Source: a virus
Length of the DNA stretch: 46,649 nt
Virus record (IMG/VR): IMGVR_UViG_3300045952_000323
Coordinates: 1-46,649 of that record
Direction: 5' to 3' (one strand)
Part shown: piece after piece, positions 15,253 to 45,000 of the stretch
How positions within the stretch are numbered: the stretch's first letter is position 1
How the letters are laid out: each line of letters starts with the position of its first letter
Notes under the pieces: model-generated
The model's input: only the letters and a program-made list of their open reading frames with translations
Told to the model about the DNA's origin: nothing
The model's database searches: none
Translations under genes and position numbers: made by a program

Positions 15253-16050
15253 TTACGAGTCTCCTTCTTCCCACAGTAAAAGTTCCTCGAACACGTTCTT
15301 CTCCTTCGGAGCAGACGGCGCTGTCTTCCCTACACCCGCGGGCGCAGGTGGAGCCGCCTTCTTCTGGACCTTCGCGTGTCCGTTCGGTTTCGCAGTACCT
15401 GTCGTGCTGAGGCCTAACGTCTGCATCGAGATCGCCCCGATGTCGGCGATAGCTTGCTCCGTGGTCGCGCTCGGATTGGTCTGCCTGTAGACCTTCGCGA
15501 TGCGTCCCACTGCCTCCTTGCGGTCTTTGAGCTCGGGCCAGCGCTCGTCAAATTGACTTTCAGCTGAAGTGTGTTGACTGCGCTGTGCCTCGAACGCGAG
15601 CACCGCAACTGGGAGCTGAGTAAACAATGCCCTGATGCTCGACTCGTATACCTCGGCATGAAGCTTTGCCGCCATACGAGCCATCACCTTGGCTGTGTCC
15701 TCCCCGATAGTCTCCTTCTCCTCCGGCGTCACCGCCTGCTCGTAGTTCATCGAGAGCTCGGCAATGAACGCTTCCTTCTGGAGGCGCAGCTGTTCCGCCC
15801 TCTGATCTGGCGTCAGCTCTTCCTTCGGCTTCTCCTCCTCCTTCTTCTCCGGCTCCTTCTTTGGAGCTTCCTCCTCTTTCACCTCTTCTTCTGGAGGCAC
15901 TTCCGCCGGCACTTCCGCCGGGGTCTCCGTAGGAGTTTGGGCAACGTCCTCGTCTCCTTCTTCCAGGAAGGAAAGGTCGAACGCTTCAGTCTCGGCCGGC
16001 TCCGGAGCTGCTGCCGTCGGCGCCGCTACGTCCGGCATATCAGTCGCCAT
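15253..16050 (-). CDS. Capsid scaffolding protein
   Basis: 265 aa. The first 100 residues are acidic and P/E/K-rich (PEEEVKEEEAPKKEPEKKEE). A helical middle (about residues 100-200) is followed by an A/P/K-rich linker and a short C-terminal helix KNVFEELLLWEEGDS. This composition and the place directly before the capsid gene are typical of scaffold proteins, whose C-terminus usually contacts the capsid protein. Perfect GGAGGAATAG spacing to ATG 16,050 indicates strong translation. Confidence 0.75.
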   Translation of the reverse strand: MATDMPDVAAPTAAAPEPAETEAFDLSFLEEGDEDVAQTPTETPAEVPAEVPPEEEVKEEEAPKKEPEKKEEEKPKEELTPDQRAEQLRLQKEAFIAELSMNYEQAVTPEEKETIGEDTAKVMARMAAKLHAEVYESSIRALFTQLPVAVLAFEAQRSQHTSAESQFDERWPELKDRKEAVGRIAKVYRQTNPSATTEQAIADIGAISMQTLGLSTTGTAKPNGHAKVQKKAAPPAPAGVGKTAPSAPKEKNVFEELLLWEEGDS

Positions 16051-20447: not shown

Positions 20448-22076
20448 TTACGGTGCAGTCTGAATGCCACTGGACCAGTCCATCTGATCGTGTTGGTAAA
20501 GCTGCAGCTTCCCATCCTCGTCCCACTCGACCCCTTTCCTGTAGTACTCCAGCCCTTCCTCCACGGCCATCGCCACCGCGTCCAGATCATCATCATGATC
20601 GACCAGAGGATATCGGGAGAATTGCGAAATCAGCTCCACCTGCGTCGCATGCATGTAGAAGGCGCCTTGTGATGCTACCTGCGCTAATGTCTGCACGATC
20701 CTGTGTCGCTTCTTCCTCATCTCCGTTACAGGGTTAATCGGCACGAAGACCCTAGTCTCCCGCATCTTCCGCTCGAGCAAATACTGTAGGGTCCTCTGAT
20801 AGTTGTTCGCCTCAACTCTACAGGAGGTGGGCTTCCACTTCTGTACCAGGTTAATGAAGGTGTTCTCCGTCCAATCTGGTTGGTGCCCGCGGTTCCTCTG
20901 GATCTCGAGCACGAAGAACATCCCGCGGTAGAGGCCCACCACGGCCAGTACCTCGAAGTCCTTCTTGGAGAACATCTCGGCGATCTGCCTACCCGATGGA
21001 GGCGGAACCGGATCAATCCCGATGAAGGTTACGAGCTGAGCCTGTGGATCTAGGTTATCCCAAAACCTCGCCCACGAAGGTTTGAAATCCATTAGCTCGT
21101 CTGCAATGATGGTAACTTCTTTCTCCCGCATCCAGAGCATCACCTGGCCTCTGGCAACGTGGGCTTGCTTCTCTGCCAGGAGTGTCTCTGTGGGGAACCT
21201 CGAGGGCCAGCTACTTTCCCCGTTGGGGAGAAAGCAACCGTAGGACCTATTTGCCCAGGTCGGATCCTTCTCGCACTGCGATACGAGGTCCCCATCAATG
21301 AACGGCGTTTGCGACAGCACCATCATAGCCTCGGGACATTCTGTCCTGGGCGCAAGGCTCTGGGCCAGCGCAGAGAAAAATCTTTCCTCCGTCCTCTCTC
21401 TCTGCTCATCTGATGCAGTGTTCTCCTCATCGCACGGATCATCTACTACAATCAGGTCAGGCCGGTAATCATCTATATTCAACCCTCGAGTTTGTCCAGT
21501 AATTCCCAGGGCAACTATAGCACAAGACTGCTGAAGTGCCCTCGAGTATATCTCAATCCACTCATCTGTCCACTTGCTCCCCGGTTCTACCCCATAGACC
21601 GAGCGCAGCAGTTCATTCTCCTCCACCTGCTTCTTAATCCACCTCACCGACTGAATACTATGCCGCTGCGAAACCGAGACAAAAATACAAGTTCTCGAGA
21701 TCCCGTACACGGCCCTCTTGAGGGTGAAGGTGCGTAAGCGGGTTGTCTTCGCTGACCCTCTGAACATTTTGAGGGCGACGAATTGGTACTTGTGCGACTC
21801 GAGGAGCCTCCAAACATCCTGGTCGAAGACCGGAAAGTCCTGTCTGAAGGTTTTGGGGAAGAAGGTGGTGCAGAATAGCTGCGGATTCAGGGCACACAGC
21901 TCGACCAGCTCCTCAACATCAACCTGGTTCGTCCGAGCCTCCCGAGCGTCAGGACCTGTGCTCAACCGAGCGCCCTCGGCGCTTGGCTTAGGTGCTGCCG
22001 AGAGGGCCTGTAGGACCGCCAGTCCTGGGTTTGTCCTCTGCCAGTACGATGAGGCTGAGCCCGGTGAATCCTGCAT
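20448..22076 (-). CDS. terL: Terminase large subunit
   Basis: 542 aa. ATPase part: Walker A-like FRGSAKTT (residues 105-112) and Walker B DLIVVDDPCDEE (about residues 205-216). The nuclease part has IGIDPVPPPS, VEANNYQRTL and the C-terminal acidic cluster DHDDDLDAVAMA, the RNase H-type metal site. It packages DNA into the prohead through the portal. The first 48 residues are unlike the rest because they span the end of the upstream gene and a family A hairpin. The true start may be a downstream TTG at about 21,968 or ATG 22,076; no good ribosome site decides this. Confidence 0.85.
   Translation of the reverse strand: MQDSPGSASSYWQRTNPGLAVLQALSAAPKPSAEGARLSTGPDAREARTNQVDVEELVELCALNPQLFCTTFFPKTFRQDFPVFDQDVWRLLESHKYQFVALKMFRGSAKTTRLRTFTLKRAVYGISRTCIFVSVSQRHSIQSVRWIKKQVEENELLRSVYGVEPGSKWTDEWIEIYSRALQQSCAIVALGITGQTRGLNIDDYRPDLIVVDDPCDEENTASDEQRERTEERFFSALAQSLAPRTECPEAMMVLSQTPFIDGDLVSQCEKDPTWANRSYGCFLPNGESSWPSRFPTETLLAEKQAHVARGQVMLWMREKEVTIIADELMDFKPSWARFWDNLDPQAQLVTFIGIDPVPPPSGRQIAEMFSKKDFEVLAVVGLYRGMFFVLEIQRNRGHQPDWTENTFINLVQKWKPTSCRVEANNYQRTLQYLLERKMRETRVFVPINPVTEMRKKRHRIVQTLAQVASQGAFYMHATQVELISQFSRYPLVDHDDDLDAVAMAVEEGLEYYRKGVEWDEDGKLQLYQHDQMDWSSGIQTAP
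21961..21990 (-). repeat. Family A hairpin copy inside the TerL 5' end
   Basis: AGCGCC (21,969-21,974) pairs with GGCGCT (21,978-21,983) around a 3-base loop, followed on the transcribed strand by CGGTTGAG. It begins at the TAA (21,988-21,990) of the PD-(D/E)XK-like gene but lies in frame within the TerL N-terminus, encoding SAEGARLST. Confidence 0.75.
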
Positions 22077-23762: not shown

Positions 23763-24272
23763 TTACTCCGGGATCAGGGCTCCCAAGTCATCGCCGGTCT
23801 GGCCGCGAGCCTCGCGGATTGCGGCGACGGCCACGGTGATGTCAGGGCGCCGGCGGTACTTCGCGACCTCCTTGGCGTCGAGCCCGTTGATGTACGCCTC
23901 GACCTTCGCCCGCTCGCGAACCACGCCGGCCTTGGCGAATACTGCCATGGTGGCCTCGACCAGGATGGAGCGATCGATCTCGCGGCCGGCCGACCAGTCG
24001 CCGTTCACGAGCGGCGCGTTGCGGGCCTTGACCATCTCAACGGGATCGCCACCATCGGCGCCGATGCCAGAGATTTCGTCACCGAGCACCTGCCCAAGCC
24101 CGTGAAGCGCAAGATGGGTCACAATGGCCTTGGGGTAGTCGGAGAGGCTGAACACCAGGGTATCGTTGACGGTCGGATTGCCTTCGCTGTCCTTCTCGCC
24201 GAGGAACACCAGGGTAAGAGACCTGGCGTTGGCGTCGATCACCTTCGAGAGGCGACGGGTACGGGTTGCCAT
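23763..24272 (-). CDS. Control-region phage protein ending in LGALIPE
   Basis: 169 aa from ATG 24,272. A long frame extends upstream, but this start sits just after a sigma-70 promoter and an inverted repeat. The N-terminus is basic (MATRTRRLSKV). The middle has a FSLSDYPKAIVTHLALHGLG segment and a VLVEAT-type helix, and the C-terminal third (KVEAYINGLDAKEVAKYRRR, then PDITVAVAAIREAR) is helical. This order of blocks resembles a widespread phage protein of unknown function. It has its own promoter and terminator, separate from both main operons, and strongly G/C-ending codons. Its last residues, DDLGALIPE, resemble the tails of two early proteins. Confidence 0.65.
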   Translation of the reverse strand: MATRTRRLSKVIDANARSLTLVFLGEKDSEGNPTVNDTLVFSLSDYPKAIVTHLALHGLGQVLGDEISGIGADGGDPVEMVKARNAPLVNGDWSAGREIDRSILVEATMAVFAKAGVVRERAKVEAYINGLDAKEVAKYRRRPDITVAVAAIREARGQTGDDLGALIPE

Positions 24273-24290
24273 TTGGGTATTCCGATTTCG

Positions 24291-24311
24291 GATCGGACCC
24301 AATGTCCGATC
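24291..24311. promoter_or_regulatory. Inverted repeat operator candidate GATCGGAC-N5-GTCCGATC
   Basis: Perfect 8+8 inverted repeat with a 5-base spacer in the leader of the 169-aa gene, 19 bases upstream of its ATG and 10 bases after the -10 box. A repressor bound here would block transcription. The half-site ATCGGAC also follows the moron promoter at 29,658. Confidence 0.6.
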
Positions 24312-24320
24312 ACCATCGGG

Positions 24321-24349
24321 ACCATACGATAAGCGAGATGTCGTGTCAA
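24321..24349 (-). promoter_or_regulatory. Leftward sigma-70 promoter of the 169-aa gene
   Basis: On the minus strand TTGACA (24,349-24,344) and TATGGT (24,326-24,321) are spaced by 17 bases. The -35 box is perfect. The inverted repeat at 24,291-24,311 lies just downstream. Confidence 0.75.
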
Positions 24350-24352
24350 GAA

Positions 24353-24502
24353 TTATTTTCGGGATGGAGCTAGGTTCTGTCTCACGCGCGCGTTCTTCTT
24401 CTTGGGGCCGGGATCGGGTCGAATGGCGATTGCCGGGCCACCGGGCACCGTGGACGCGATCGGCCGGGTTCCGGCCACCACCATGCCCATCGGCGCCGAC
24501 AT
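24353..24502 (-). CDS. Possible small basic protein (uncertain strand)
   Basis: Minus-strand frame of 49 codons, ending 4 bases before the -35 box of the 169-aa gene. The product is P/G/A-rich with a basic end (PGPKKKNARVRQNLAPSRK). No good ribosome site is visible. The plus-strand frame over the same stretch (from about 24,402) is equally G/C-rich at third positions but runs on into low-complexity sequence. I favour neither strongly. Confidence 0.25.
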   Translation of the reverse strand: MSAPMGMVVAGTRPIASTVPGGPAIAIRPDPGPKKKNARVRQNLAPSRK

Positions 24503-24628
24503 CGCCCACGGCCACGTATGGCCCGGCAAACGATACGTGGTCTTTTCCGCACCTCCCTCCCCATCCCCAAAACAACAACAAAGCTACTTCCCCACCTCTA
24601 AAACAACAATAAACCTACCGAAATGTAG

Positions 24629-24664
24629 AATACGTGATGTTGCAGCTATGTCGAACCACGCATT
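24629..24664. repeat. Family B hairpin copy 2
   Basis: AATACGTG (24,629-24,636) pairs with CACGCATT (24,657-24,664), with one A/C mismatch on this strand and a wobble on the other. The right part reads GTCGAACCACGCATTG, as in copy 1. It borders the left array of phased repeats. Confidence 0.7.
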
Positions 24665-24676
24665 GCCGCATATCGT

Positions 24677-24715
24677 GTTACCCTAATATCCCCTATGGTT
24701 ACCCTAATATCCCCT
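24677..24715 (+). repeat. Left phased array (two 18-bp direct repeats)
   Basis: GTTACCCTAATATCCCCT occurs at 24,677-24,694 and 24,698-24,715, a 21-bp period equal to two helical turns. CCCT occurs at 24,681, 24,691, 24,702 and 24,712, i.e. every 10-11 bases, so all motifs face the same side of the helix. It is inverted relative to the AGGG array at 24,858-24,930. Confidence 0.8.
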
Positions 24716-24741
24716 CTGTTCCTATGATTTTCCATTTTACG

Positions 24742-24830
24742 CCCCCCTCACCCCCCGGACCTTACCCCCCCTTACCTTAAAAAAAAAATTATACATATAG
24801 GTATTGTAAGATAGGGTGAGATAAGGTCCG
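24742..24830. other. Candidate origin core: C-runs, A-tract and 9-bp inverted repeat
   Basis: Between the two phased arrays lie runs of 6-7 cytosines (24,742-24,771), an uninterrupted A tract followed by ATTATACATATAG (24,779-24,800), and the 9-base inverted repeat CGGACCTTA (24,756-24,764)/TAAGGTCCG (24,822-24,830). An A/T-rich tract bordered by repeats would suit DNA unwinding. No gene is visible here. An early rightward promoter may also lie here, but I could not define one. Confidence 0.5.
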
Positions 24831-24857
24831 AGATGGGGACCCAAAATCGATCGACAT

Positions 24858-24930
24858 AGGGACACAGGGGACTTTAGGGTGATATTAGGGGACATTAGGG
24901 AAACATAGGGAACATGTAGGGGAAATTGGG
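24858..24930 (+). repeat. Right phased array of AGGG motifs
   Basis: AGGG begins at 24,858, 24,866, 24,876, 24,887, 24,897, 24,907 and 24,918, with a weaker TTGGG at 24,926. The steps are mostly 10-11 bases. The sharpest units are AGGGGACTTTAGGGTGAT and ATATTAGGGGACATTAGGG, near-inverse matches of the left-array repeat. Helical phasing suggests side-by-side binding of one protein along one face of the DNA. Confidence 0.8.
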
Positions 24931-24935
24931 CATGG

Positions 24936-24952
24936 TGCGACAAAATGTCGCA
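24936..24952. promoter_or_regulatory. Operator-like palindrome TGCGACA-N3-TGTCGCA, copy 2
   Basis: Perfect 7+7 inverted repeat with spacer AAA. The flanking CATGG (24,931-24,935) and CCATG (24,958-24,962) widen the dyad. It lies between the AGGG array and the first early frames, where an early promoter would be expected. Confidence 0.6.
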
Positions 24953-25018
24953 TATTCCCATGCGGCAACACGTGATAACATCGCTTTGCCTTCGGCAATA
25001 AGCAAACGGAGATGCTTC

Positions 25019-25063
25019 ATGCTTTCCCAACGCCACACGCCTGAGCACGAAGTGCTCGGTTGA
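25019..25063 (+). CDS. Possible 14-aa leader peptide
   Basis: ATG 25,019 has GGAG 7 bases upstream. The frame runs for 14 codons and its TGA lies inside the family A hairpin, so translation would disrupt the hairpin. It would be the first translated frame of the early operon. A leader-type role is speculation from this arrangement. Confidence 0.3.
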   Translation: MLSQRHTPEHEVLG

Positions 25064-25065
25064 GG
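25041..25065 (+). repeat. Family A hairpin copy (early leader)
   Basis: GAGCAC (25,043-25,048) pairs with GTGCTC (25,052-25,057) around GAA and is followed by GGTTGAGG, the family signature. It stands ahead of the first early genes. Confidence 0.75.
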
Positions 25066-25078
25066 ATGGAGAATGACA

Positions 25079-25204
25079 ATGCACGAAAGGGATCACTCAA
25101 AGGATCGCGGTTTCCTGGCCAGTGAAATGGGTCATGGCTTCTGGCCGACTCCATCAACATGTCGGCACCGACGCCTGTGCCGAGGCGGGAGGGTGACTTC
25201 ATGA
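25079..25204 (+). CDS. Small hypothetical early protein (41 aa)
   Basis: 41 aa. GGAG lies 8 bases before ATG 25,079. The product is rich in H, R, G and C. Its TGA overlaps the ATG of the next gene (ATGA, 25,201-25,204), the coupling style used throughout this genome, which supports it as a real gene. No homology is apparent to me. Confidence 0.45.
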   Translation: MHERDHSKDRGFLASEMGHGFWPTPSTCRHRRLCRGGRVTS

Positions 25205-25644
25205 TAACTCCTTTTCAAGACGCAGCTCGCGGGTGGGCATTCGCTGACGCAGCAGGCCTAAAGCAGCGCATCGCTCGGGCAGGGCCTCTAGCCTCCAACG
25301 AGATCGAACAGAATGTGCTCCGAGTCATGAAGGAATGCCTTGCCGAGATGGAGCCCTCAGCCTCGCAACCAGCGCTCGAACCGATGCAGGTCATACCAGG
25401 CAGAAACTCCATGACGGTGATCCTGCAATCGGGCGAACGGGTCCTCGTCTGCTCGCCGCAGCAGCTCTGGCACGTCCTTCAGACCGGGAAAGCGCCCCAA
25501 AGAGTCGAGCGGTTGGTAGGCGCTAGGCCGAGCCCACAGTTCGACGACGGGAAGATCACCAAACTGCGGCCCGGGATGAGAGGAGTTAGCCGCGTCACAG
25601 GCCGAGCCTTGCACAAGGACCTAGCCGACCTCATACCGGAATAG
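25201..25644 (+). CDS. Early protein with C-terminal LADLIPE
   Basis: 147 aa from ATG 25,201, preceded by GGGAGGG at good distance; an upstream in-frame ATG at 25,159 lacks a ribosome site. The N-terminal half is helical (about residues 1-45). A short beta core has MTVILQSGERVLVCSPQQLW, followed by a basic region (KITKLRPGMRGVSRVTGRAL). The tail DLADLIPE matches another early protein at 33,214 and resembles the control-region protein at 23,763. I infer that this tail is a docking signal. No known domain. Confidence 0.6.
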   Translation: MITPFQDAARGWAFADAAGLKQRIARAGPLASNEIEQNVLRVMKECLAEMEPSASQPALEPMQVIPGRNSMTVILQSGERVLVCSPQQLWHVLQTGKAPQRVERLVGARPSPQFDDGKITKLRPGMRGVSRVTGRALHKDLADLIPE

Positions 25645-29634: not shown

Positions 29635-29663
29635 TTGACATCCGTGCGGAAATGCGTTATGTT
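29635..29663 (+). promoter_or_regulatory. Rightward sigma-70 promoter of the moron-type gene
   Basis: TTGACA (29,635-29,640) and TATGTT (29,658-29,663) are spaced by 17 bases. ATCGGAC follows 11 bases after the -10 box, as in the leader of the 169-aa gene. It gives the inserted gene its own transcription within the early operon. Confidence 0.75.
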
Positions 29664-29744
29664 TATCGTCCCCAATCGGACCGCGCGTCGCTCGGAGCCA
29701 AGCGGCACGCGGGCTGTACCCATAGGCTCCCGGAAGAGATAAAG

Positions 29745-31274
29745 ATGCTCCGGCAATGGCTAAGCCGTCAGCAGTGGCGGCATACCCAACGCAAGCCTGA
29801 GATATTCGCTCCGGCAGCGCCAGTAATGGACCGCCGTGCCTTCCTGAACAGCGCGTCCACGCTTGCTGTTGGTGCGGTGGTCTACGCTTATCTCCCAGGC
29901 GAGGCCCAGGCGCTCACCGTCAGTGACGTGATCAGTGTAGTCACTGCAGTCATCACAGCGGCGATCGGCGCGACCGGTTTTGGCATGATCGCACTCGGGC
30001 TGGCCGGAGCAGCGATCGGTCTCGCCTTTACTGAGTGGTCCGACTACCAGGGCCAGGGCGAGTTGCCGATCTATGCGGACACCAGGATCGGCTACCTCTC
30101 GGGCAGCGGCGGCCAGTCGATGTTCCCGATTACCGTCAGCCAATTCGCCGCTCGTCACGGGATCACGTCCGCCACAGCGATCGGGATCTTCAAGAAGTAT
30201 CAAGTCCTGTTCGACGCTACTGGCCCGTGGGGCAACATCCTCGGCAACAACTACCGACTGTTCGGCGGCGCGAACGACAGTCTCGCTGGCTACCTATGGG
30301 CCAAGACCAGCCGCAACAAGCGCAAGTTCCAGAAGAGCCTGAAGGCCTACATTGCGGCGTTCCTTGGCGAGATGCGTAGCAGTGACAGCGAAGGCATCCG
30401 GTTGACTGCGGATGCCTTCGTCGACGCAAACGGCAACCCAACTGCAAACGGCGGCACCGCGACCAGCGACGGTGTCGAGGTCACGGCCGGTCAGACGGCG
30501 TTCTGGCCCACGCTACGGGCCTCGGCCTTCGGCATCGCCAGCAGCCGCGAGCCCGCGCTCAAGGCGGTGTGCAAGTGGTGCGGCGCCAACAGCTACCCCG
30601 CCTTCGGGAGATCCAAGCGAGTACGCCACGCCTCGAAGTCCGGGCTAACGCTCGGCGCACGCCCATCGCAGACTACCTCTGCCGGGCTCGGCAACGGCTC
30701 GGGCAAGTGGAACTTCGACGGGCTCTACACCGCGAGCGAGGCGACCTACCAGCTTGCCCGGCTGATCCCAGGCGCAAGCGCAGATAACGTCGCTCGTTGG
30801 GGCGCTGAGTTCACGAAAAGGGACGGGCTGATCCAGATCGGCTCGCCGCATTCTCTTCTCCGCCTGTGGCGCCTTTATGAGCTGTTCCGCAAACACGGGT
30901 TCAATGAGCGGTTGATCCGTGAGGGGATGCGGAAATGGCTGATCGAAGAGCACGGCTGGGGACCATCGCATCCCGAACTCAGTGCCGAGGCGCTGGATGA
31001 TAGCCTGCGGCGCCTCATGGATGGTGAGGCCACGAACTCGGGGCTGCGCCAAGTTATCGGGCTCGACCTGTTGGAACGCATGCGCGATGATCCTAATCGT
31101 CCGTGCAAAATTCCTCAGGCCGCCTTCTCAATCATGAAGGATGAGGATAACCTCGCCGCGTTCAAGGATGTCATGTCGATCTGGGGCCTCTGGCGGGTCA
31201 GCACGACGCACGGGTACGAGCTGGACGTGGAGCCACCTCATATCAACATCATCCGAACCATCAAGTACACCTGA
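29745..31274 (+). CDS. Tat-exported membrane/secreted protein of unknown function (moron-type)
   Basis: 509 aa from ATG 29,745, preceded by GGAAGAG; an upstream frame to 29,652 overlaps the promoter and is rejected. DRRAFLNSASTLAVGAVVYA fits a twin-arginine signal (RRxFL), with GEAQA as likely cleavage site. A hydrophobic, glycine-zipper stretch (about residues 65-105: VVTAVITAAIGATGFGMIAL, then GLAGAAIGLAF) follows. The rest is soluble, with FPITVSQFAARHGITSATAI, WGNILGNNYRLFG and FWPTLRASAFGIASSREPAL, then a C-terminal helical region (LLRLWRLYELFRKHGFNERL). No family recognised. Own promoter, G/C-rich codon use and single-gene layout indicate a late-acquired cargo gene that may act on the host envelope. 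Confidence 0.7.
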   Translation: MLRQWLSRQQWRHTQRKPEIFAPAAPVMDRRAFLNSASTLAVGAVVYAYLPGEAQALTVSDVISVVTAVITAAIGATGFGMIALGLAGAAIGLAFTEWSDYQGQGELPIYADTRIGYLSGSGGQSMFPITVSQFAARHGITSATAIGIFKKYQVLFDATGPWGNILGNNYRLFGGANDSLAGYLWAKTSRNKRKFQKSLKAYIAAFLGEMRSSDSEGIRLTADAFVDANGNPTANGGTATSDGVEVTAGQTAFWPTLRASAFGIASSREPALKAVCKWCGANSYPAFGRSKRVRHASKSGLTLGARPSQTTSAGLGNGSGKWNFDGLYTASEATYQLARLIPGASADNVARWGAEFTKRDGLIQIGSPHSLLRLWRLYELFRKHGFNERLIREGMRKWLIEEHGWGPSHPELSAEALDDSLRRLMDGEATNSGLRQVIGLDLLERMRDDPNRPCKIPQAAFSIMKDEDNLAAFKDVMSIWGLWRVSTTHGYELDVEPPHINIIRTIKYT

Positions 31275-32456: not shown

Positions 32457-32636
32457 ATGATCGGTCTCCTGCTAGCCGGGTTCGTGATCTTCGTAGCTGT
32501 TCACTGGTTCATCGCCGATGAGCAGATGAAGCGTCTGTGTCTCCTTGGCGCCGCTGTCTGTGTGCTCATCTTCATCATCCTGCTCGTCCTGAATGTTGCC
32601 GGAGTTGCTACTCCGGTCACGCTCTGGCCAAGGTAG
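32457..32636 (+). CDS. Small two-helix membrane protein (59 aa)
   Basis: 59 aa. Two membrane helices (IGLLLAGFVIFVAVHWFI and LCLLGAAVCVLIFIILLVLN) with a short loop. GGAGG lies just before ATG 32,457, 2 bases after the stop of the exported protein. The topology would allow a holin- or toxin-like activity, but the early position argues against lysis. Confidence 0.6.
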   Translation: MIGLLLAGFVIFVAVHWFIADEQMKRLCLLGAAVCVLIFIILLVLNVAGVATPVTLWPR

Positions 32637-32649
32637 AAGGAGAACCAAG

Positions 32650-33009
32650 GTGCCTACCGAGCGCTGGACCATCACGGTCCCATCTGACCTCGCTGCAAAG
32701 GTCGAACTTCTCACCTTCGACCCGCTCGTGGGCCGACCTGAGTACGGCGCTCGGGCCGAGATCATTACAAGAGCTCTGCAAAAGTACGTAGAGCAGCTCT
32801 GCCAGCCAGAGGACGGCGATGTAATCGAGACCCGCATCGCTGTCCTCTCTCGTGGCATCACTCGTCTACTTGTCTACCCGGGCAAGCTGCACATACCCGA
32901 GCTCAATGTGCAGCTGTCCCCCGATGATCTCCGCATGCTCCGTCAGGAGTTTGAGATCATCCTCAGGAACATGAACCGAGCTCGTCAAAAGGAGAAAGCA
33001 CTTGCCTGA
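32650..33009 (+). CDS. Ribbon-helix-helix-like early regulator (putative)
   Basis: 119 aa from GTG 32,650 with AAGGAG upstream; the frame extends further but overlaps the membrane protein. RWTITVPSDLAAKVELLTFD followed by ARAEIITRALQKYVEQL has the strand-helix-helix layout of small ribbon-helix-helix DNA-binding proteins. The C-terminal half (RGITRLLVYPGKLHIPELNV, then DDLRMLRQEFEIILRNM) is of unknown fold. It overlaps the next gene. Confidence 0.5.
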   Translation: MPTERWTITVPSDLAAKVELLTFDPLVGRPEYGARAEIITRALQKYVEQLCQPEDGDVIETRIAVLSRGITRLLVYPGKLHIPELNVQLSPDDLRMLRQEFEIILRNMNRARQKEKALA

Positions 33010-36621: not shown

Positions 36622-37911
36622 ATGCAGTTCATTCACGTTGACAGGATCCAGGTCGGCGAACGCATCCGCAAGGTACACATGGAGGAGAATGTCTCCGACC
36701 TCGCCGAGTCCATCCTTCTCCTCGGTCTCCTCCATCCCATTGTGATCAGGTGGAAGGACGACCTTCCTCATCTGGTCGCCGGTGAGACTCGGCTCAAGGC
36801 CATCACGAAGATCTACATGGAGCAGCCAGGAAAGAGGATCCTCTGTAACGGGCTCGAGGTTCCCCTGGGCTTCCTCCCTATCACAGACCTGGCCGAGATG
36901 TCCGAGGACCTCGTCCTCGAGGCGGAGCTGGATGAGAACATCAGAAGGGCTGATTTACCTTGGCAAGATCAGGTGGCAGCCAGGGCCAGGCTCGCTCGGC
37001 TCCGCCTCAGCCAGGGCAAGACCCTCACCGCTATTGCGGAAGAGATCGGGATTGATAACACTAGAACTGCTACCATCAGGGAAGCTTTGGAAATCGACCA
37101 GATCATCAAGCAGAACGAGAACATTGCTAAAGCTCCCTCCCTTCGGCAAGCTAAGCGTATGATTGCCGACCAGCTCGGCAGAGAGTTTGCTCAAGCCATC
37201 ACCTCTCAGCTGGTTCCCAACATCAAGCACGAGCTACATCAACAGGATGCGATTGAGTACTTGCTCACACAGACTGGTCGCTTCGACATCATCCTCACCG
37301 ATCCGCCCTACGGCATCTCGGCCCACAAGATCGACGGCGATACCAGACATCGGCATGAATACAATGATAACTGGACACAAGTGAAGGGGCTTATCCGGAG
37401 GTTTGCTGAAGCAGCAACCTACGCAACGGCTCCTGAAGCCCACCTCTATATGTTCTGTGACATTCGCAGGTTCATGGACCACGTCCCTGTCTTCGACAGC
37501 CTCGGATGGAGGGTGTGGAATGTTCCTCTCATCTGGGTGAAGAACGGAGGACATTCTGCCGAAATCGACCACGGGCCATCTCGCCGGTACGAATGTATCC
37601 TCTACGCCATCAAGGGCGAGATGCGTTTAGTGCGAACTGGTCTATCCGACGTGCTCGTCCACCCGATTGAGACCAAAGTGACCTACGCTGCAGCCAAGCC
37701 AGTCTCGCTCTTCACAGACCTTCTCGAGCGATCAGCCACTCCCGGTATCTCCGTGGTGTGCGACCCTTTTTGCGGCTCGGGTCCGATCTTCCCCTCGGCT
37801 AAGATGTTCGATCTCACTGCCATCGGGGTGGACAATTCCGAGCTGGCAATCCAGTACGCTAAGAAGCGACTCGTTGAAATGGAGATGGAGCTAGTAGATG
37901 ACAAGGCCTGA
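36622..37911 (+). CDS. ParB-like/DNA methyltransferase fusion
   Basis: 429 aa. Residues about 1-190 are ParB/Spo0J-like: IQVGERIRKVHMEENVSDLA, LLGLLHPIVIR, VAGETRLKA, then ELDENIRRADLPWQDQVAAR and a helix-turn-helix (TLTAIAEEIGIDNTRTATIR). The C-terminal half is a DNA methyltransferase: LTDPPYG (motif IV, about residues 225-231) followed later by VCDPFCGSG (motif I, about residues 378-386), the beta-class order typical of N6-adenine or N4-cytosine enzymes. It may protect phage DNA from host restriction or mark the origin. The target sequence is unknown. Confidence 0.8.
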   Translation: MQFIHVDRIQVGERIRKVHMEENVSDLAESILLLGLLHPIVIRWKDDLPHLVAGETRLKAITKIYMEQPGKRILCNGLEVPLGFLPITDLAEMSEDLVLEAELDENIRRADLPWQDQVAARARLARLRLSQGKTLTAIAEEIGIDNTRTATIREALEIDQIIKQNENIAKAPSLRQAKRMIADQLGREFAQAITSQLVPNIKHELHQQDAIEYLLTQTGRFDIILTDPPYGISAHKIDGDTRHRHEYNDNWTQVKGLIRRFAEAATYATAPEAHLYMFCDIRRFMDHVPVFDSLGWRVWNVPLIWVKNGGHSAEIDHGPSRRYECILYAIKGEMRLVRTGLSDVLVHPIETKVTYAAAKPVSLFTDLLERSATPGISVVCDPFCGSGPIFPSAKMFDLTAIGVDNSELAIQYAKKRLVEMEMELVDDKA

Positions 37912-38122
37912 CCAGTTCGAACTCATGCAGGCAGCGTTCGACATCCTCTCCCAGGATCTAGCCTTGGCCCTCAGACAGGCTGCCCTGGCCAAGGCGCTCG
38001 CAGCACAAAGGGATCTTGAGATCAGGGTACTAAATGCTCGGCTCGAGGAGCAGAAACAAGTCGAGGAGAGTATTCAGGACATCACGCCGGAGGAGAGCGC
38101 ACAAGAGAAGGCGAAGAAATGA
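37898..38122 (+). CDS. Small coiled-coil protein (74 aa)
   Basis: 74 aa. Nearly all helical: ELMQAAFDILSQDLALALRQ, AALAKALAAQRDLEIRVLNA, then an acidic K/E end. It overlaps the end of the methyltransferase gene and the start of the polymerase gene (ATGA), so expression of all three is coupled. A helper to polymerase or methyltransferase is possible. Confidence 0.5.
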   Translation: MTRPDQFELMQAAFDILSQDLALALRQAALAKALAAQRDLEIRVLNARLEEQKQVEESIQDITPEESAQEKAKK

Positions 38123-40548
38123 GTACCCGATATGTTCCTGGTGACGGTCCGGTTCCCGCCAACTTGATGCTCATTGGGGAAGCCCCAGGTGCAGAAGAGA
38201 ACGATCGAGGAAAGCCCTTTGTCGGGCCAGCAGGATATCACTTGGACTTGATGTTCGGCGAGTGTGGAATTAATCGGGCAGACATCAGGATCTCCAACGC
38301 CTTCCGCTACCAACCCTACAATAATAACATCTCCCAATTCGTCACCTTCATCAAGACTCATGGGCAGCGAGAGGGTTGGCCTACCTTCATGAACGGCTAT
38401 GTTAAGCCGAACATGATACAACACCTGCATGATCTGCATGATGAGGTCGAGCGGGTGCAACCGAACTGCATCGTGGCGATGGGTAGGACTGCTTACTGGG
38501 CTCTCACCGGCGAGCCGCCCAAGAAGAACCATATGCTCTCGGACCTCCGCGGTAACATCTTCTATCCGAAGATCCGAGATCGACACTACAAAGTTATTCC
38601 CACCTTCCATTCCTCCTACATCATGCAGTATGCATGGCAAGATCGCTCAATCGTGAAGCACGATCTGTCCCGTGCCCTGCATGAGTCCCTCTCCCCTGAG
38701 CTGATCCACAGACCGGCCAAGTTCTATCTCCAGCCCACATACGAGCAGACGATGTCGTTCCTCGACGAGATGTTTCTGCGGTCGGAACGGGGCGAGTTCG
38801 TCACCTTGGACCTCGAAACCCGTGGCGGCCAGATTGCTTGCTGTGGAATTGGAACTCAAGAGCGCGTCCTCACCATCCCCTTCATGGTCATAGAAGGCGA
38901 TCATTCGTATTGGCCGCCGGAGGTCGAGCTTTCAATCGTCCTGCGCCTACGCGAGATCTCTACCCATCCTAATGCCCGCATCCGCGGACAGAACCTTCTC
39001 TACGATTGCCAGTATACAGCGAAGATTTGGGGCTTCGTTCCTCGTGTCCGCCACGACACCATTATCAATCATCACTGCCTCTGGCCCAATCCCAATATGA
39101 GGAACCGACTCGAGTTCCAGGGAACTCTCTACTGCCAGCAGCCTCGGTTCTGGAAAGTGGAGGGGAAGGAATGGGACTCCTCCATGTCAGAGACTCAGCT
39201 GTGGAACTACAATGCTGAGGACGTCTCGCGGACAGATGAGATTGGGAAGACCCTCGAAGACATTACGAAGCAGGTCGGACTGACGGAGCAGAACCAATTC
39301 CTTCAGGACCTCTTCGAGCCCGTCCTCTTCATGATGCTGAGGGGAGTTCGGATTGACCTCGAGCGGAAGGATCGACTGCTGAAAGAGTTCCGAGTCCACA
39401 CTGCCACGTTGAAGGAGGAGATTGATTTCATCTGTAGCCATCCCCTTAATCCGAACTCTCCACAACAGCTTCAGACATTCTTCTACAATGACCTCGGCAT
39501 TCGTCCCGTCACCACGAAGGTGAAGGAAGCAGACGGTTCTCGGCGAACTCGACTTACCGTGAATGACGAGGCGCTGGAGAAGATCAAGGAGAGGGAGCCG
39601 CTGGTCAGATCCCTCATTGAACGCATCCAGATCTATCGCTCGGCCAAAACCATCACAGCTAACGTCTTGGTGAAGGACATTGCGGAGGACGGAAGAGCCC
39701 GTTGCTCCTATCGCATTGACGGTACAAAGACTTTCCGGTTCTCGGCTAAGGAGGATGCATTCGGCTTCGGCTTCCAGCTGATGAACATCTCAGAGGGCGA
39801 GGACAAGGAGGCCAAGCCGATGGCCCGAGGCCTTCCGAACCTCCGTGACATGTTCATCCCTGACGAAGATTGCGAGTTCATCGAAGGAGACCTCGAGGGA
39901 GCTGACGCTAGGGTCGTCGCCTGGGAAGCCAACGATCCCTGGCTGAAGGCTCTCTTCCGAGAAGGCATTGACATTCATGAGGAAACAGGAAGGGAACTAA
40001 AACTTTCCCGCCCTCTCTCAAAGCGCGCGCGACATGCCGGTCACTATGGAGTAACAGCCGAGGGCCTCGCTAACCGGATCGGCCGTACAGTCCATGAGGC
40101 TGACCTCTTACTTCGTAAGATTTTCGAGATGTCTCCCGCCATCGGACCAGTCACCCGAAAGGGAAGTTGGCACTGGAAGATCGCTCAAGTTTGTGCCGAG
40201 GGGAACCGGACCCAGATCGGCATCCTCGAGAACATCTTCGGCTTTCGCTACCCAGTCCTCGAGAGGGGCTTCTATACCCACGGGCTCGCCTGGGTTCCCC
40301 AATCCACCATTGCCATCCTCACCAACAAGATCCTCCTGAACGTGTGGCGCCAGCTACGGCAGGAAGTTCAGTTGATGTTGCAGGTGCATGACAGCCTATT
40401 GATGCAGGCTCGTATCGAGCAGGTTGACGAAGTTCTGCCCAAGATTACGGCTGCCTCGCAGATTGTTCTTCCCTACCCCGATGATCCCCTCATTATTCCA
40501 TTCAGCTTGAAGAGAAGCAAGCTATCATGGGGGGAGTGCAAAGAATGA
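38119..40548 (+). CDS. Uracil-DNA glycosylase-DNA polymerase A fusion
   Basis: 809 aa. Residues 1-200 carry family 4-type UDG motifs: GEAPGAEE...GKPFVGPAG and TFHSS (H about 164). Residues about 225-400 are a DnaQ-like proofreading exonuclease (TLDLET, D about 231, E about 233). The polymerase part has motif A EGDLEGADARV (about 588-598), motif B with K about 635 in SKRARHAGHYG, and motif C LQVHDSLL (about 753-760). It replicates phage DNA and the N-terminus could remove or sense uracil. One uninterrupted frame with ATGA coupling to the upstream gene. Confidence 0.85.
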   Translation: MSTRYVPGDGPVPANLMLIGEAPGAEENDRGKPFVGPAGYHLDLMFGECGINRADIRISNAFRYQPYNNNISQFVTFIKTHGQREGWPTFMNGYVKPNMIQHLHDLHDEVERVQPNCIVAMGRTAYWALTGEPPKKNHMLSDLRGNIFYPKIRDRHYKVIPTFHSSYIMQYAWQDRSIVKHDLSRALHESLSPELIHRPAKFYLQPTYEQTMSFLDEMFLRSERGEFVTLDLETRGGQIACCGIGTQERVLTIPFMVIEGDHSYWPPEVELSIVLRLREISTHPNARIRGQNLLYDCQYTAKIWGFVPRVRHDTIINHHCLWPNPNMRNRLEFQGTLYCQQPRFWKVEGKEWDSSMSETQLWNYNAEDVSRTDEIGKTLEDITKQVGLTEQNQFLQDLFEPVLFMMLRGVRIDLERKDRLLKEFRVHTATLKEEIDFICSHPLNPNSPQQLQTFFYNDLGIRPVTTKVKEADGSRRTRLTVNDEALEKIKEREPLVRSLIERIQIYRSAKTITANVLVKDIAEDGRARCSYRIDGTKTFRFSAKEDAFGFGFQLMNISEGEDKEAKPMARGLPNLRDMFIPDEDCEFIEGDLEGADARVVAWEANDPWLKALFREGIDIHEETGRELKLSRPLSKRARHAGHYGVTAEGLANRIGRTVHEADLLLRKIFEMSPAIGPVTRKGSWHWKIAQVCAEGNRTQIGILENIFGFRYPVLERGFYTHGLAWVPQSTIAILTNKILLNVWRQLRQEVQLMLQVHDSLLMQARIEQVDEVLPKITAASQIVLPYPDDPLIIPFSLKRSKLSWGECKE

Positions 40549-40550
40549 AG

Positions 40551-40586
40551 AATACGTCATTGGCTCGGTGGGTCGAACCACGTATT
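40551..40586. repeat. Family B hairpin copy 4
   Basis: AATACGT (40,551-40,557) pairs with ACGTATT (40,580-40,586). The right part reads GGGTCGAACCACGTATTG. It fills the short gap between the polymerase and helicase genes. Confidence 0.7.
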
Positions 40587-40603
40587 GTCTCGGCCTGAAC
40601 CTA

Positions 40604-41797
40604 ATGTCTCGACGTCACCATGTCGACTGGATCAAAGCGTACATGGAGTATACCTCCTATCTGGAGGCGCCCGACCAGTTCCATTTCTGGACCGCTGTCT
40701 CTACCATCGCTGGCGCCCTGCGCAGAAAGGTCCGTTTCGACCAGATCCATTATCGCTGGTCACCTAACTTCTACATCATTCTCGTAGCGCCACCAGGAAT
40801 AATAGCTAAGTCAACGACAGCCAACGTCGGAATTTCGCTTCTGGTCGAGCTCGAGATCCCGCTCGGCCCGAACGCCCTCACTTGGCAGAAACTCCCATCG
40901 GCTCTGGAGAATGCCCGAGTGGATGTGGTCCAGCCCGATGGTTCCTTCGATCCAATGTGCTGCCTAACTTTCTCCGCATCTGAGCTCGGCACCTTCATGG
41001 ACCCTTCTGACAGAGCAATGGTAGATCTGCTGGTAGACTTATGGGACTCGAAGGACGGCGCATGGACAAAGGCCACCAAAACCCAGGGCGAGGACATGGT
41101 TATCAATCCCTGGCTCAACATTATCGCCTGTACCACACCTTCCTGGTTAGCTCAGAATTTCCCTCGCTCCCTGGTGGGCGGAGGCTTCACCTCTCGCTGT
41201 CTCTTCGTTTTCGGTGACGCCAAGCGTAAGATCGTCGCGTATCCCAGGAAGATGATGGAGAGCAATGCGAAAGACTATCATGCCCTGCGGACCAGTCTAA
41301 TCGAGGACCTTGCTCAAATCTCCTCCATCAAAGGTGAATATGTCTTAACTCCAGCAGCGGAGGAATGGGGCTCCGCCTGGTACAACAAGCATTCGGTCGA
41401 GCAGCAAATCTCTTCCGACGAGTCAGGCTTCGCCGCGCGTACCCAATGTCACTCACACAAGCTGGCTATGGTCATCGCCGCCTCGCAACGAGATGAGCTG
41501 CTGATAACCCAAGAGGACCTGGAGCACGCTACAATCCTCGTGGAGGAGATTGGGGCGAATTTGCCTCGGGTCTTCCGAGCCGTCCACACAAAGGAGGATC
41601 AGATCGAGGTCGAGCAAATCTTCCGTTATGTACAAGCTGCTTCCGACAAGTCTATGACGAAGATCGACCTCTATCGCAACTTCCGGCATATGATGTCCTG
41701 GCAGAAGTTCGAAGAAGCAATCACCGCCGGGATTAACTCAGGATATCTTGAACTTCTGGCAGACGGTAACGCCCTCAACGTCAGGTACAAAGGATAA
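40604..41797 (+). CDS. DUF3987-type replication helicase/ATPase
   Basis: 397 aa from ATG 40,604; a GTG at 40,568 lies inside the family B hairpin and is rejected. YLEAPDQFHFWTAVSTIAGA and LVAPPGIIAKSTT resemble the phage DUF3987/primase-helicase group; the P-loop has alanine where glycine is usual (AKST). Next come FSASELGTFMDPSDRAMVD, the Walker B-like WLNIIACTTPSWLA and SRCLFVFGD. C-terminal helical domain. It probably unwinds DNA for the adjacent polymerase. Confidence 0.7.
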   Translation: MSRRHHVDWIKAYMEYTSYLEAPDQFHFWTAVSTIAGALRRKVRFDQIHYRWSPNFYIILVAPPGIIAKSTTANVGISLLVELEIPLGPNALTWQKLPSALENARVDVVQPDGSFDPMCCLTFSASELGTFMDPSDRAMVDLLVDLWDSKDGAWTKATKTQGEDMVINPWLNIIACTTPSWLAQNFPRSLVGGGFTSRCLFVFGDAKRKIVAYPRKMMESNAKDYHALRTSLIEDLAQISSIKGEYVLTPAAEEWGSAWYNKHSVEQQISSDESGFAARTQCHSHKLAMVIAASQRDELLITQEDLEHATILVEEIGANLPRVFRAVHTKEDQIEVEQIFRYVQAASDKSMTKIDLYRNFRHMMSWQKFEEAITAGINSGYLELLADGNALNVRYKG

Positions 41798-42015: not shown

Positions 42016-45000
42016 CTATTCGTAAGCTTTGCCAACATCTCGATAGAGACGAAGGTATTGCTTGCCCTCAGGAGCTCCTCGCTCCCGTTTCCTCTGTGCG
42101 TCCCGTCTTCTCGAATACGAAGCATACTTGTCTGCAGCGGATATCCGCAGCTTTGGATACGGGACATCCTTATTGTAGGCTCGGATGGCTTCCTCCGTGT
42201 CAGCTAGCGCTTCGCGATCTCCCGAGCTCCTTGCATGGAAGTAGTGGGTCAGCAGGATCTGTTGTCTCGTCACATAAAACTTGACCGCGTCCCGTTGCGC
42301 AAAGCTCTTCTCTTGCATCCTCGTAAGTCTGGTCGGCTTAAAGCCCATCCCCTGTGCAAATATCTCCGCCAGATGGTTCGGATCATCCACATCAAATTCG
42401 AGCAGCCGGTCGCCAAGCGTGTTCGTTGCCTCGCCTGTCGTATAGTAGCGATAGGCCCGCGTAACATCCCTACCCGCAGCAGGTAGCACCAGCTCCAAAA
42501 ACTTCAACGGATCGGGATTGTCGGTAGCCATAGCTCGAAACATATTGGAAGCAAGAGCTCCTACTGCACCACCCGCTGAGGTAGTCACTTCTCCAATTAG
42601 CTCCCTTGGATCTGCCGTGCCTAATCTCAGCATCCTCGAGAACGGCTCCACCGTTGGCACTATCTTCCCCAAGGAGAGCGATCCGCTAATATCCATCTCC
42701 GGGAACCCAGACCACAACCGCTGAAGCCAGAACGAGTTCCGAGACAGTCCATGCATCATCAGCTCGGGATTCAGTCCGACCTCCTGCATGAATTCACGCA
42801 GCTCGGTCTGAGCATCATGATACGGATCTCCCCAACCAAATAGCCTCGAGAACAAGCCCCTTACTCCATCGAACATATCGAGGAGGTCTTCAGCTCCGGG
42901 AAGCCCCATCAATCCAGCTGACGCCAACAACATCACGAGCGCTCTTGATCCACCTTTATCTTTGATAAGGAAGTGAGTCATATGCTGCATATACTGCTGG
43001 AATACAAAGAATACCGACTTCTTCCCTCGTGCTATTTGTGGACGGTTCCACTTCTGATATTCGAACATCGAGGTCTGGACAGCTGCTCGCCCTGCTGCCT
43101 CTACATCCAGGACCCCAGTTGCGGCAGCTAGACGGACAGCCGCCAGGAACGTGATCCTCCTATTAATCATCTCGGCATGTTTGAAGAGGAAGGCTGAGCC
43201 GCGCTGGAAAGCTCGGACATATCTAGCTTTATCCGTTCCCCCCAACATCCGATCGAGGTTCGAGCCCTCAGCCACTGCCGCTAGCTCGGAGGCTAGGCTC
43301 TCATTCAGGTACGATTGTCCTTGCTGGATAAGGGCCTCCTCAACCGGCGACAGTGGTCTAAAGGTAAAAACATCCTTTATAGCCTTAGTCAGTTCAGCAA
43401 CAGCCTGGACATCACCATACCTCGACGCCAAATAAGGATATCCTACCATCGGGATCTGGGTGAGATTAACCAGCGCAGACTTGATAGAGAAGCCGAGATA
43501 GTAGGTGAATAACGCTGACCTAACTGCTGCCCACTCGTTCCCCGGATTGACCATATAGGAGTAATGATTACGTAAGTACTCAACCAAGCGTTGCCGCGCC
43601 ACGGTATTCGAACCGCGACCTGCTGCCAAGATACCGATCTGTTCTTGCAACGGCTGATAGAATTTCATTCTAGAGATGTGTGACGCAGCATGCATCATGT
43701 AGCTAGCGTATGCCCGCTTCGCATCTGCGGAGAACCCAGCTACACCTCTCCTTCGGAGAAGGTGCTTCTTGAAGCTCTGACCCGGAGACAACCTATAAAC
43801 GATATCTCTGAACTGTTTTAGCTGCTGAGCATCTAGCCCAAGCTCCATCTTCATAGACTCAAGCATTGCAGGCGGAAAGCCCGAGAAGGTGAAGGGAGTA
43901 TCAGGAATATAACTCTCTTCCACATCAACGTTCGGCAGCTTCCTTAATGAGTTCGCTCTACTCTGAGCCTCCCTCTTCATCTCATACGTCTCGAAGGACA
44001 TCACATCGCCAGCTTTGAACTTTTTCCCCTCCCACATAAGATCCCGTGGCGCCTTCAACGTTACCGAATATTGGCCGAACCTCGTCAAGGGGAAGTAGTT
44101 CCTATCCCGAAGCAGCTGAAACTCCTTATCCAGCTTCTCCATCGCGATATCCAGCTGGAACTTATCCGCTGCGAAGACCTTTGCTGCTTGGGCCCTCAGA
44201 TGTTGCTCGATCTCCTGTAAGATGTCCTGAAAGTTCAGGTCCATTTGCGTATACACGCGCATGGCGGAGTCGCTCAAGCCATGCTTGCTGCGCCATGTAT
44301 CGAGCTCGGCTGTGGTTAACCTCCGGTGCTTGTCAAGACTATCGAGGGTAACATCATAGAGGAATTTTGCTAGTCGCTCGCCCTGGTTCTTCCCCAGCTT
44401 ATTCCACGCCCCGCGGGTCTCGTCAGCAAGAGACGTCACTCGGATCTTATCTGTCCACTGCTCTTGAATGAGGGAGATATACTTTTGCACCGGAGCCAGA
44501 TGCGGGAACTTCTGACCAATCTGAAGGAGTGTCAGAACATACTCGGAGAACTTCCCGAACTTGTCCACCGAGGGCCGCATCGGTAAACCAATTGCCCCAT
44601 CAATCACTTTCTCGATCTGTCCAAAAGCTGACTGCGCCGAGGTGCCACTGTAGTACCCCCTGTATGATTCTTGCATCCCACCGCCAGGAATATATCCGAG
44701 CTCTCGCTCAATCTGCGATGTCGCTGTTACAACCCCCATCCAGTTCTCAAACGCAACAGCTGGGCGCAGATGCGGCTTGATATGATTGTAGAAATTCTTC
44801 AGCAGCTCCACCAGTCCCTCGAAAAATTCCTTCAACTTGCTATCATGGAACTCCGCTGTACGCTGTAGATAGATGGAGGTCTGCTGTGCGAACCACTCCG
44901 GAAAGCTTAGAGCATACTCGAAGAACTCCTTCTCAAGACGATTATTACTATTTAACGAATCTATCACAGTACGTGTGTTTAAGGTAGCTAGCCGAGGATC

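Follow-up and report, generated by a model that had tools for sequence, protein, structure and literature searches.

The question raised by this locus is what a pair of opposed, regularly spaced repeat arrays does in a gap between two gene blocks of a phage genome. The window, by which we mean the whole stretch of DNA analyzed, is a 46,649-bp virus record of a podovirus-like phage, classed as "linear" in IMG/VR with no end repeats reported. Its late genes, including that for TerL (20448–22076), lie on the minus strand, and its early and replication genes lie on the plus strand. The replication set comprises a DUF3987 primase-helicase, a PolA with a UDG-like domain, a Sak4-like ATPase, and a ParB_N/methyltransferase. 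Late and early blocks are separated by a 928-bp gap (24273–25200) that contains the arrays. A first-pass annotation, made by a model from the sequence, had interpreted them as a nucleoprotein assembly site for replication or global regulation.

Results

An extended dyad of helically phased repeats

The positions given in that annotation for four CCCT (Table 1) and seven AGGG tetramers (24858, 24866, 24876, 24887, 24897, 24907, and 24918) are exact, and the left arm is indeed a 21-bp tandem, with two copies that are 95% alike. When all 4-mers were considered at spacings of 8 to 12 bp, the seven-copy AGGG chain was the longest in the window; the CCCT chain has four copies. Of 100 dinucleotide shuffles of the complete window, 48 had a longest chain of four copies and 52 had one of fewer than four. 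The AGGG chain is far beyond chance; the CCCT chain alone would not be.

Although the two opposed arrays exist as described, the real unit is one long dyad that recurs across a phage family. Local alignment of 294 bp with their own reverse complement, allowing gaps, scored 86, whereas 300 shuffles of 24600–25019 gave a mean of 16.2 (sd 3.5) and a maximum of 31. The 9-bp inverted repeat noted earlier is present but is only part of a 27-bp, 78% complementary pair (I3), itself nested within a 100-bp, 70% complementary pair (I1). If a degenerate fifth unit of the left arm is counted (TCCT at 24720), unit spacings from the center outward are 8, 10, 11, and 10 bp, mirrored in both arms; the right arm runs two units further, at spacings of 10 and 11 bp. 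Further AGGG/CCCT copies at 24745, 24769, and 24813 fall within the C-run and G-run segments. The earlier statement that no gene is present holds for confident gene calls but not for weak ones. Three near-identical IMG/VR contigs are identical over 24677–24930, which is a matter of reproducibility, not of conservation.

Table 1. Coordinates of the element, its parts, and nearby or possibly associated features in the window.
Feature	Position	Strand	Remarks
Whole quasi-palindrome (element)	24649..24942	.	Self-reverse-complement score 86 versus at most 31 in shuffles
Left array, CCCT at 24681/24691/24702/24712 plus degenerate TCCT at 24720	24677..24726	- (G-rich strand = minus)	21-bp tandem D3, mirrored spacing
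Inner left C-run segment with GGACCTTA	24740..24777	- (G-runs on minus strand)	Half of inner inverted repeat I3
A/T-rich center	24779..24808	.	A10 at 24779-24788
Inner right segment, G-runs and TAAGGTCC	24809..24842	+	I3 pair
Right array, seven AGGG units	24858..24930	+	Tandem repeat of period 10
169-aa A2 protein	23763..24272	-	Syntenic neighbor; nearest called gene left of element
Sigma-70-like promoter TTGACA-17-TATGGT before late block	24321..24349	-	10/12 matches; ~300 bp outside element
Weaker sigma-70-like site	24654-24627	leftward	9/12 matches; at left edge of element
DNA polymerase A with uracil-DNA-glycosylase-like domain	38119..40548	+	Family matches
DUF3987/phrog_14296 primase-helicase	40568..41797	+	Candidate replication partner; binding to element is conjecture

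Several other features of the window were observed. A 31-bp tandem of two copies, 77% alike (CTCCCTCCCCATCCCCAAAACAACAACAAAG), adjoins the element on the left (24553–24614), and the second-best self-complementary stretch (30451–30900; score 43) lies within a long ORF. The polymerase gene encodes a single 809-aa protein with an N-terminal uracil-DNA-glycosylase-superfamily domain ahead of DNA polymerase A. An N6/N4 DNA methyltransferase is fused to a ParB N-terminal domain at 36622–37911. The C-terminal half of a 1529-aa protein (42016–46605) matches large unnamed PHROGs and the DarB-like antirestriction family. A 540-aa early-block protein (29652–31274) carries RRAFLNSAS near its start, which by eye resembles a twin-arginine signal.

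The element recurs upstream of TerL in related phages

Relatives were collected through TerL: a first search gave 40 loci, and a search with a 23-sequence TerL alignment yielded 80 loci, the best of 160 matches, together with three contigs of bacterial MAGs. Self-complementarity was scanned in stretches of 400 to 450 bp over the 6 kb upstream of TerL, in the 34 loci with at least 3.6 kb of upstream sequence; this sample includes the window and leaves out five duplicates of one phage (L064, L068, L076, L122, and L123). The best upstream score was at least 38 in 22 of the 34 loci and at least 50 in 20. In the control, which took up to 6 kb on the downstream side of these TerL genes, three of 34 loci reached 38, none reached 50, and the maximum was 45. 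Five further records were read on the far side of the contig, where the position predicted from TerL gave the element in four (scores 93, 68, 67, and 76) and a miss in one (32); one of these four, G005, has contig ends whose joining is not established, so that its element–TerL distance is not fixed. In total, a quasi-palindrome is present in 26 of 39 records at a score of at least 38 and in 24 of 39 at a score of at least 50, the window included. The element usually lies 1.8 to 3.4 kb upstream of TerL, with one case (L036) at −4.5 kb. In seven whole genomes, selected for carrying the element, it is in every case the best palindrome, with scores of 68 to 92 versus 31 to 44 for the second best. 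The best scores in two outgroup genomes, those of phages Kuura (39) and PaMx41 (41), do not fall at their array regions. The element is real and family-wide.

Thirteen of the 39 records have no palindrome at the cutoff. One of them, L067, is counted as a miss, whereas its duplicate L068 scores 60 at −6.2 kb. Vibrio phage VS-ABTNL-3 (L050) is a miss in the upstream scan; a weak version (15648–15806; score 36), with AATTTTT repeats of period 7, C-runs, and a T8 center, sits at the other end of that record. Six more misses (L041, L042, L062, L070, L101, and L128) show an A-tract, C/G-runs, and inverse arrays by eye and were left uncounted. Two loci in which no element was found have direct repeats upstream of the late block, of ~24 bp in L030 (~885–955) and ~21 bp in L032 (~2110–2180).

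A constant architecture with changing motifs

Phasing was tested one arm at a time, and left and right arms are not independent of each other. The test is not circular, because arms were picked for symmetry and not for repeats. Duplicates L064, L076, L106, and L115 were left out of these counts and of the gene-call, anatomy, and arm-match counts below. In the pooled left arms of 29 relatives, with the window excluded, 4-mers recurred 118 times at lag 10 and 88 times at lag 11, where ~26 are expected (z 14.1 and 9.1). The right arms of the same relatives gave 109 and 105 recurrences, where ~27 are expected (z 11.8 and 11.0). Lag 8 in the left arms and lag 12 in the right arms were also elevated. 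By comparison, 28 control segments located 1.5 kb away gave 25 and 9 recurrences at lags 10 and 11 versus 19 expected (z 1.2 and −1.8), with a single unrelated excess at lag 33. Phages taken singly had z of at least 2 for lags 10 and 11 combined in 19 of 26 cases and z below 2 in seven.

The anatomy of the element is likewise shared. An A- or T-run of at least 6 lies within 60 bp of the center in all 30 elements. On the TerL strand this run is of A in 26 elements and of T only in four; the window is among these four, its central A-run being on the strand opposite TerL. G-runs are on the strand leading outward from the center in 24 of 30 elements, on the opposite strand in four, and tied in two.

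The motif, by contrast, differs by phage: AGGG in the window, GTACG in L044, GCAAT in L108, TCTAG in L118, and CTGGT in L152. No AGGG chain of five or more was found in the relatives. In all 30 elements the best match of the left arm is its own right arm (scores 24–71), whereas the 870 cross-phage pairs score at most 22; the high own-arm scores follow from the way elements were selected, and the low cross-phage scores do not. The first-pass annotation had staked its interpretation on a spacing that is conserved in relatives, and it is the phasing that recurs and the motif that does not. Its proposal of a nucleoprotein assembly site gains support from the helically phased units and from their return in relatives with other motifs. 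We tentatively propose, as a possibility that falls short of even chances, that every phage has its own, private origin code, in which a constant architecture (mirror arrays on one helical face, G-run shoulders, and an A-tract core) is kept and the motif of the arms is rewritten. Such a code would perhaps serve to exclude competing phages or to track a fast-changing initiator. If this proposal holds, the element would be a new class of viral cis-element.

A neighboring protein family

The nearest called gene left of the element encodes a member of a family that we call A2 (150–220 aa, often in two copies near the element). Each of the 26 phages examined has an A2 member no more than 891 bp from the element, and together they have 40 members. 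Among 18 related records, A2 was not found in two, G004 and G005, the latter of which has the element. Searches against Pfam gave scattered single-member matches and no family-wide match, those against PHROG gave phrog_28928 (unknown function) for five of 34 members, and those against PDB sequences gave nothing convincing. The A2 structure model (pLDDT 87.6) has no match among PDB structures at E < 0.001 and matches four uncharacterized viral proteins at that threshold. Residues 2–72 of the model reach only middling Z scores with ssDNA-binding folds (4.1 with Pur-alpha and 2.5–2.7 with PC4-like proteins), and its helical part does so with HAD caps (Z 6.2). The N-terminal part of the model thus weakly resembles ssDNA-binding folds of the Pur-alpha/PC4 type.

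We considered A2 as the element binder for its proximity and, on the present evidence, rejected it as unsupported. A Mantel test of A2 against array motifs in 24 phages gave rho 0.07 (p 0.26; rho 0.08 for TerL), net charge is negative in most of 34 members, and no A2 member was found in G005, which has the element. The close pair L108/L114 has unrelated array motifs. Among the proteins examined, no candidate for binding the element was established.

A candidate replication origin

We regard it as evenly poised whether the element is a replication origin of a new layout, serving a putative phage initiator. This is the reading we prefer, because inverted arrays surround an A/T-rich core, occur singly per genome, lie beside the replication module, and are independent of transcription direction. 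All 18 related records, and none of 14 control genomes, contain the primase-helicase family; the protein is a plausible partner, and its presence does not tie it to the element. Nine sites within one mismatch of the DnaA box TTATCCACA occur in the window, none of them in the element.

Replication had also been favored by the first-pass annotation, which offered a GC-skew switch as a check; our preference agrees with it, but no consistent sign change occurs at the element in the seven whole genomes. The TerL-coding strand is G-rich overall in all seven, with single 4-kb blocks deviating. Near the element, the detrended cumulative skew reaches its minimum in three genomes, its maximum in two, and neither in two. 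Early genes left of the element have a third-position skew, read in the gene sense, of −0.19, and late genes have one of +0.11; for genes between the element and the late block, it is +0.11 when they are on the same strand and +0.02 when on the opposite strand. Expressed on the TerL strand, its sign is kept in early and late genes and reversed only in the few same-strand middle genes. We do not take this reversal as a replication signal, because one protein family dominates the middle stretch and the late block shows the former sign again. These data would be compatible with replication in a unidirectional or rolling-circle mode and lend no support to a symmetric theta mode.

If the element is an origin, initiation might proceed as follows. 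A phage-encoded, sequence-specific protein would bind the ~5-bp units in both arms, one unit per helical turn, so that the bound proteins would lie on one face of the DNA. Wrapping or bending of the DNA by the two mirror-image filaments would then put the A/T-rich center under strain until it opens. The DUF3987 primase-helicase and PolA of the phage could be loaded onto the opened center, which the G-rich outward strands beside it may hold open, as an R-loop or single strand.

Alternative roles for the element

The element of the window sits at a strand switch, the early/late junction, with two sigma-70-like sites on its left, both directed leftward (Table 1), where shuffles of 24200–25300 have a mean of 0.8. 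This setting would suit a divergent early/late regulatory region in which a phage repressor or activator coats both arms and governs leftward and rightward transcription. We consider such a role improbable: a promoter or operator function fits poorly, because the orientation of flanking genes varies and the elements show no enrichment of sigma-70-like sites. Of 23 phages with genes called on both sides of the element, 14 have the two flanking genes on the same strand and nine have the element at a strand switch; over 30 elements, 20 sigma-70-like sites were found versus 15.7 expected; and the first late-block gene lies 149 to 2151 bp from the element in 26 phages. On these grounds of orientation and promoter count, a divergent early/late operator was rejected as the general role. 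The broader suggestion of global regulation fares no better, since exact or one-mismatch copies of the unit AGGGGAYATTAGGG in the window are confined to the element, in addition to the same-strand flanks; with up to three mismatches there are 11 copies versus 6.0 expected, a number reached by 4 of 100 shuffles, and the excess is due to the copies in the element. In the 26 phages, gene calls with a score of at least 9 overlap the element by 40 bp at most, and weaker calls (4–8) overlap it further in several. A search for RNA families gave only two matches, both far below gathering scores. It is also quite improbable, in our estimate, that the element is a strand-folding device, in which selection or template switching keeps the arms complementary so that the displaced strand forms a hairpin and the phased motifs are a by-product. 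As ssDNA the element of the window folds at −53.7 kcal/mol versus −34.7 (sd 4.1) for 200 shuffles, none of them as stable, and the two arms of any one phage resemble each other even as the motif changes from phage to phage. However, conserved short cores with variable spacers at 10 to 11 bp are typical of binding sites and unnecessary for a hairpin, and the arms of the window agree at only 77% of aligned positions, with gaps needed to align them. Very improbable is a centromere-like site for partition or DNA anchoring, at which a ParR-like ribbon-helix-helix protein on the phased repeats would move or anchor phage DNA. ParR-like proteins of plasmid R1 do bind phased repeats of ~10 to 11 bp, and a 138-aa protein of the window (32593–33009) has, by eye only, an RHH-like N terminus. 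This protein, however, has no Pfam or PHROG match, the ParB_N domain of the window is fused to a methyltransferase, and no partition ATPase or filament gene was recognized among the 13 window proteins scanned against Pfam, most of which are unannotated.

The rival that we take most seriously, while judging it unlikely, is a genome terminus where concatemers are processed and packaging starts, with a terminase or helper protein assembling on the arrays and the genome ends being cut within the element or next to it. The element is found upstream of TerS/TerL, the Mel-JY34 record ends 50 bp outside its palindrome, and the PaMx41 and 119X records open inside the array region at the matching place. 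In Caulobacter phage Kuura, a distant relative whose TerL is 27% identical to that of L105, the direct terminal repeat starts at 43208, within a region that holds a GGGCAGTT array (lag 10, z 5.6), inverse copies (AACTGCCC), and an A12 tract at 43141. The 606-bp direct terminal repeats of Kuura were identified with PhageTerm, according to PMC9959647, and we confirmed the exact repeat in the genome sequence. The Kuura region, however, is not a quasi-palindrome (score 17), and the ends of PaMx41 and 119X join seamlessly in PaMx32, where the palindrome score is 16 to 26. The contig ends that lie close to the element reflect breaks in assembly: six of seven contigs tested proved to have overlapping ends of ~127 to 141 bp, for which reason contig ends were rejected as physical genome ends, and several breaks fall at A-tracts. 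The element is mirror-symmetric, moreover, whereas packaging sites are directional. An origin near a genome end could satisfy both readings.

Two observations were made on these records. In PaMx41 (L131, at the record ends), PaMx32, FBPa48, and 119X (L132, L133, and L134), an AAGGT-type array and ACCTT-type inverse copies flank a G-run-rich stretch at a matching genome position, with no strong dyad; phages of this type were rejected as carriers of the full element, since they have array-like stretches only, with palindrome scores of 16 to 26. In contigs G002 and G007, the overlapping ends occur as two copies that differ in A-tract length, which suggests a length polymorphism or an assembly error.

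Discussion

A search of the literature, with most subscription journals outside its coverage, found no description of such an element, which is apparently undescribed. If the origin reading is true, the element pinpoints where replication starts, or another master site of DNA processing, in a large and mostly uncultured podovirus-like group, and an origin would have been found from sequence alone, in searchable form. The ~30 natural elements, with the same geometry and different letters, would then separate shape and spacing from sequence in origin recognition. They would also suggest that the site evolves like a lock that has its code exchanged in the two arms at once, which could be tested as an instance of concerted evolution at an origin.

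Several known systems share parts of this design. The parC site of plasmid R1 has two arrays of ~11-bp direct repeats flanking a promoter and so resembles the element in having two phased arrays around a central stretch; the arrays of the element, however, are inverted, and promoters are not enriched there. Phage T7 SRL and SRR are short-motif arrays by the concatemer junction, with CCTAAAG-like units flanking the terminal repeat. These arrays, near the genome ends of a podovirus, share with the element a repeated short motif and, in SRL, regular spacing, but that spacing is 13 bp (z 18.8) and SRR shows only lag 11 (z 3.8), whereas the element is spaced at 10 to 11 bp; in addition, we saw no central A-tract dyad in the T7 repeats, and their motif differs. 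Origins of SV40 and papillomaviruses, which are bound by a viral SF3 initiator-helicase, likewise place short pentanucleotide-like motifs in dyad beside an A/T tract. These origins are much shorter, and DUF3987 as an SF3 helicase or specific DNA binder is conjecture.

Iteron-type origins, such as those of plasmid Rep proteins and the O sites of lambda ori, consist of repeated short binding sites next to an A/T-rich stretch. In its sequence the element has both traits, a phased array of repeated candidate sites and an adjacent A/T-rich region. Iterons, however, are usually direct repeats of ~17 to 22 bp on one side, whereas the ~10-bp repeats of the element are mirrored on both sides. Iteron origins also have a Rep or O initiator, whereas no Rep/O-like gene was recognized among the window proteins scanned, most early proteins being without a family match.

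Closest in working layout is the herpesvirus OriS. In herpes simplex OriS/OriL (UL9), as in the element, inverted sites stand on both sides of an A/T-rich spacer, and the inverted OBP boxes of herpesvirus OriS, which can also form a hairpin, surround a spacer rich in A/T that becomes bent and destabilized (PMC12543377). The resemblance is one of layout only, and the viruses are unrelated: the herpes origins have a few ~10-bp boxes whose sequence is fixed for its protein, whereas the element has long arrays, phased at 10 to 11 bp, whose motif varies by phage.
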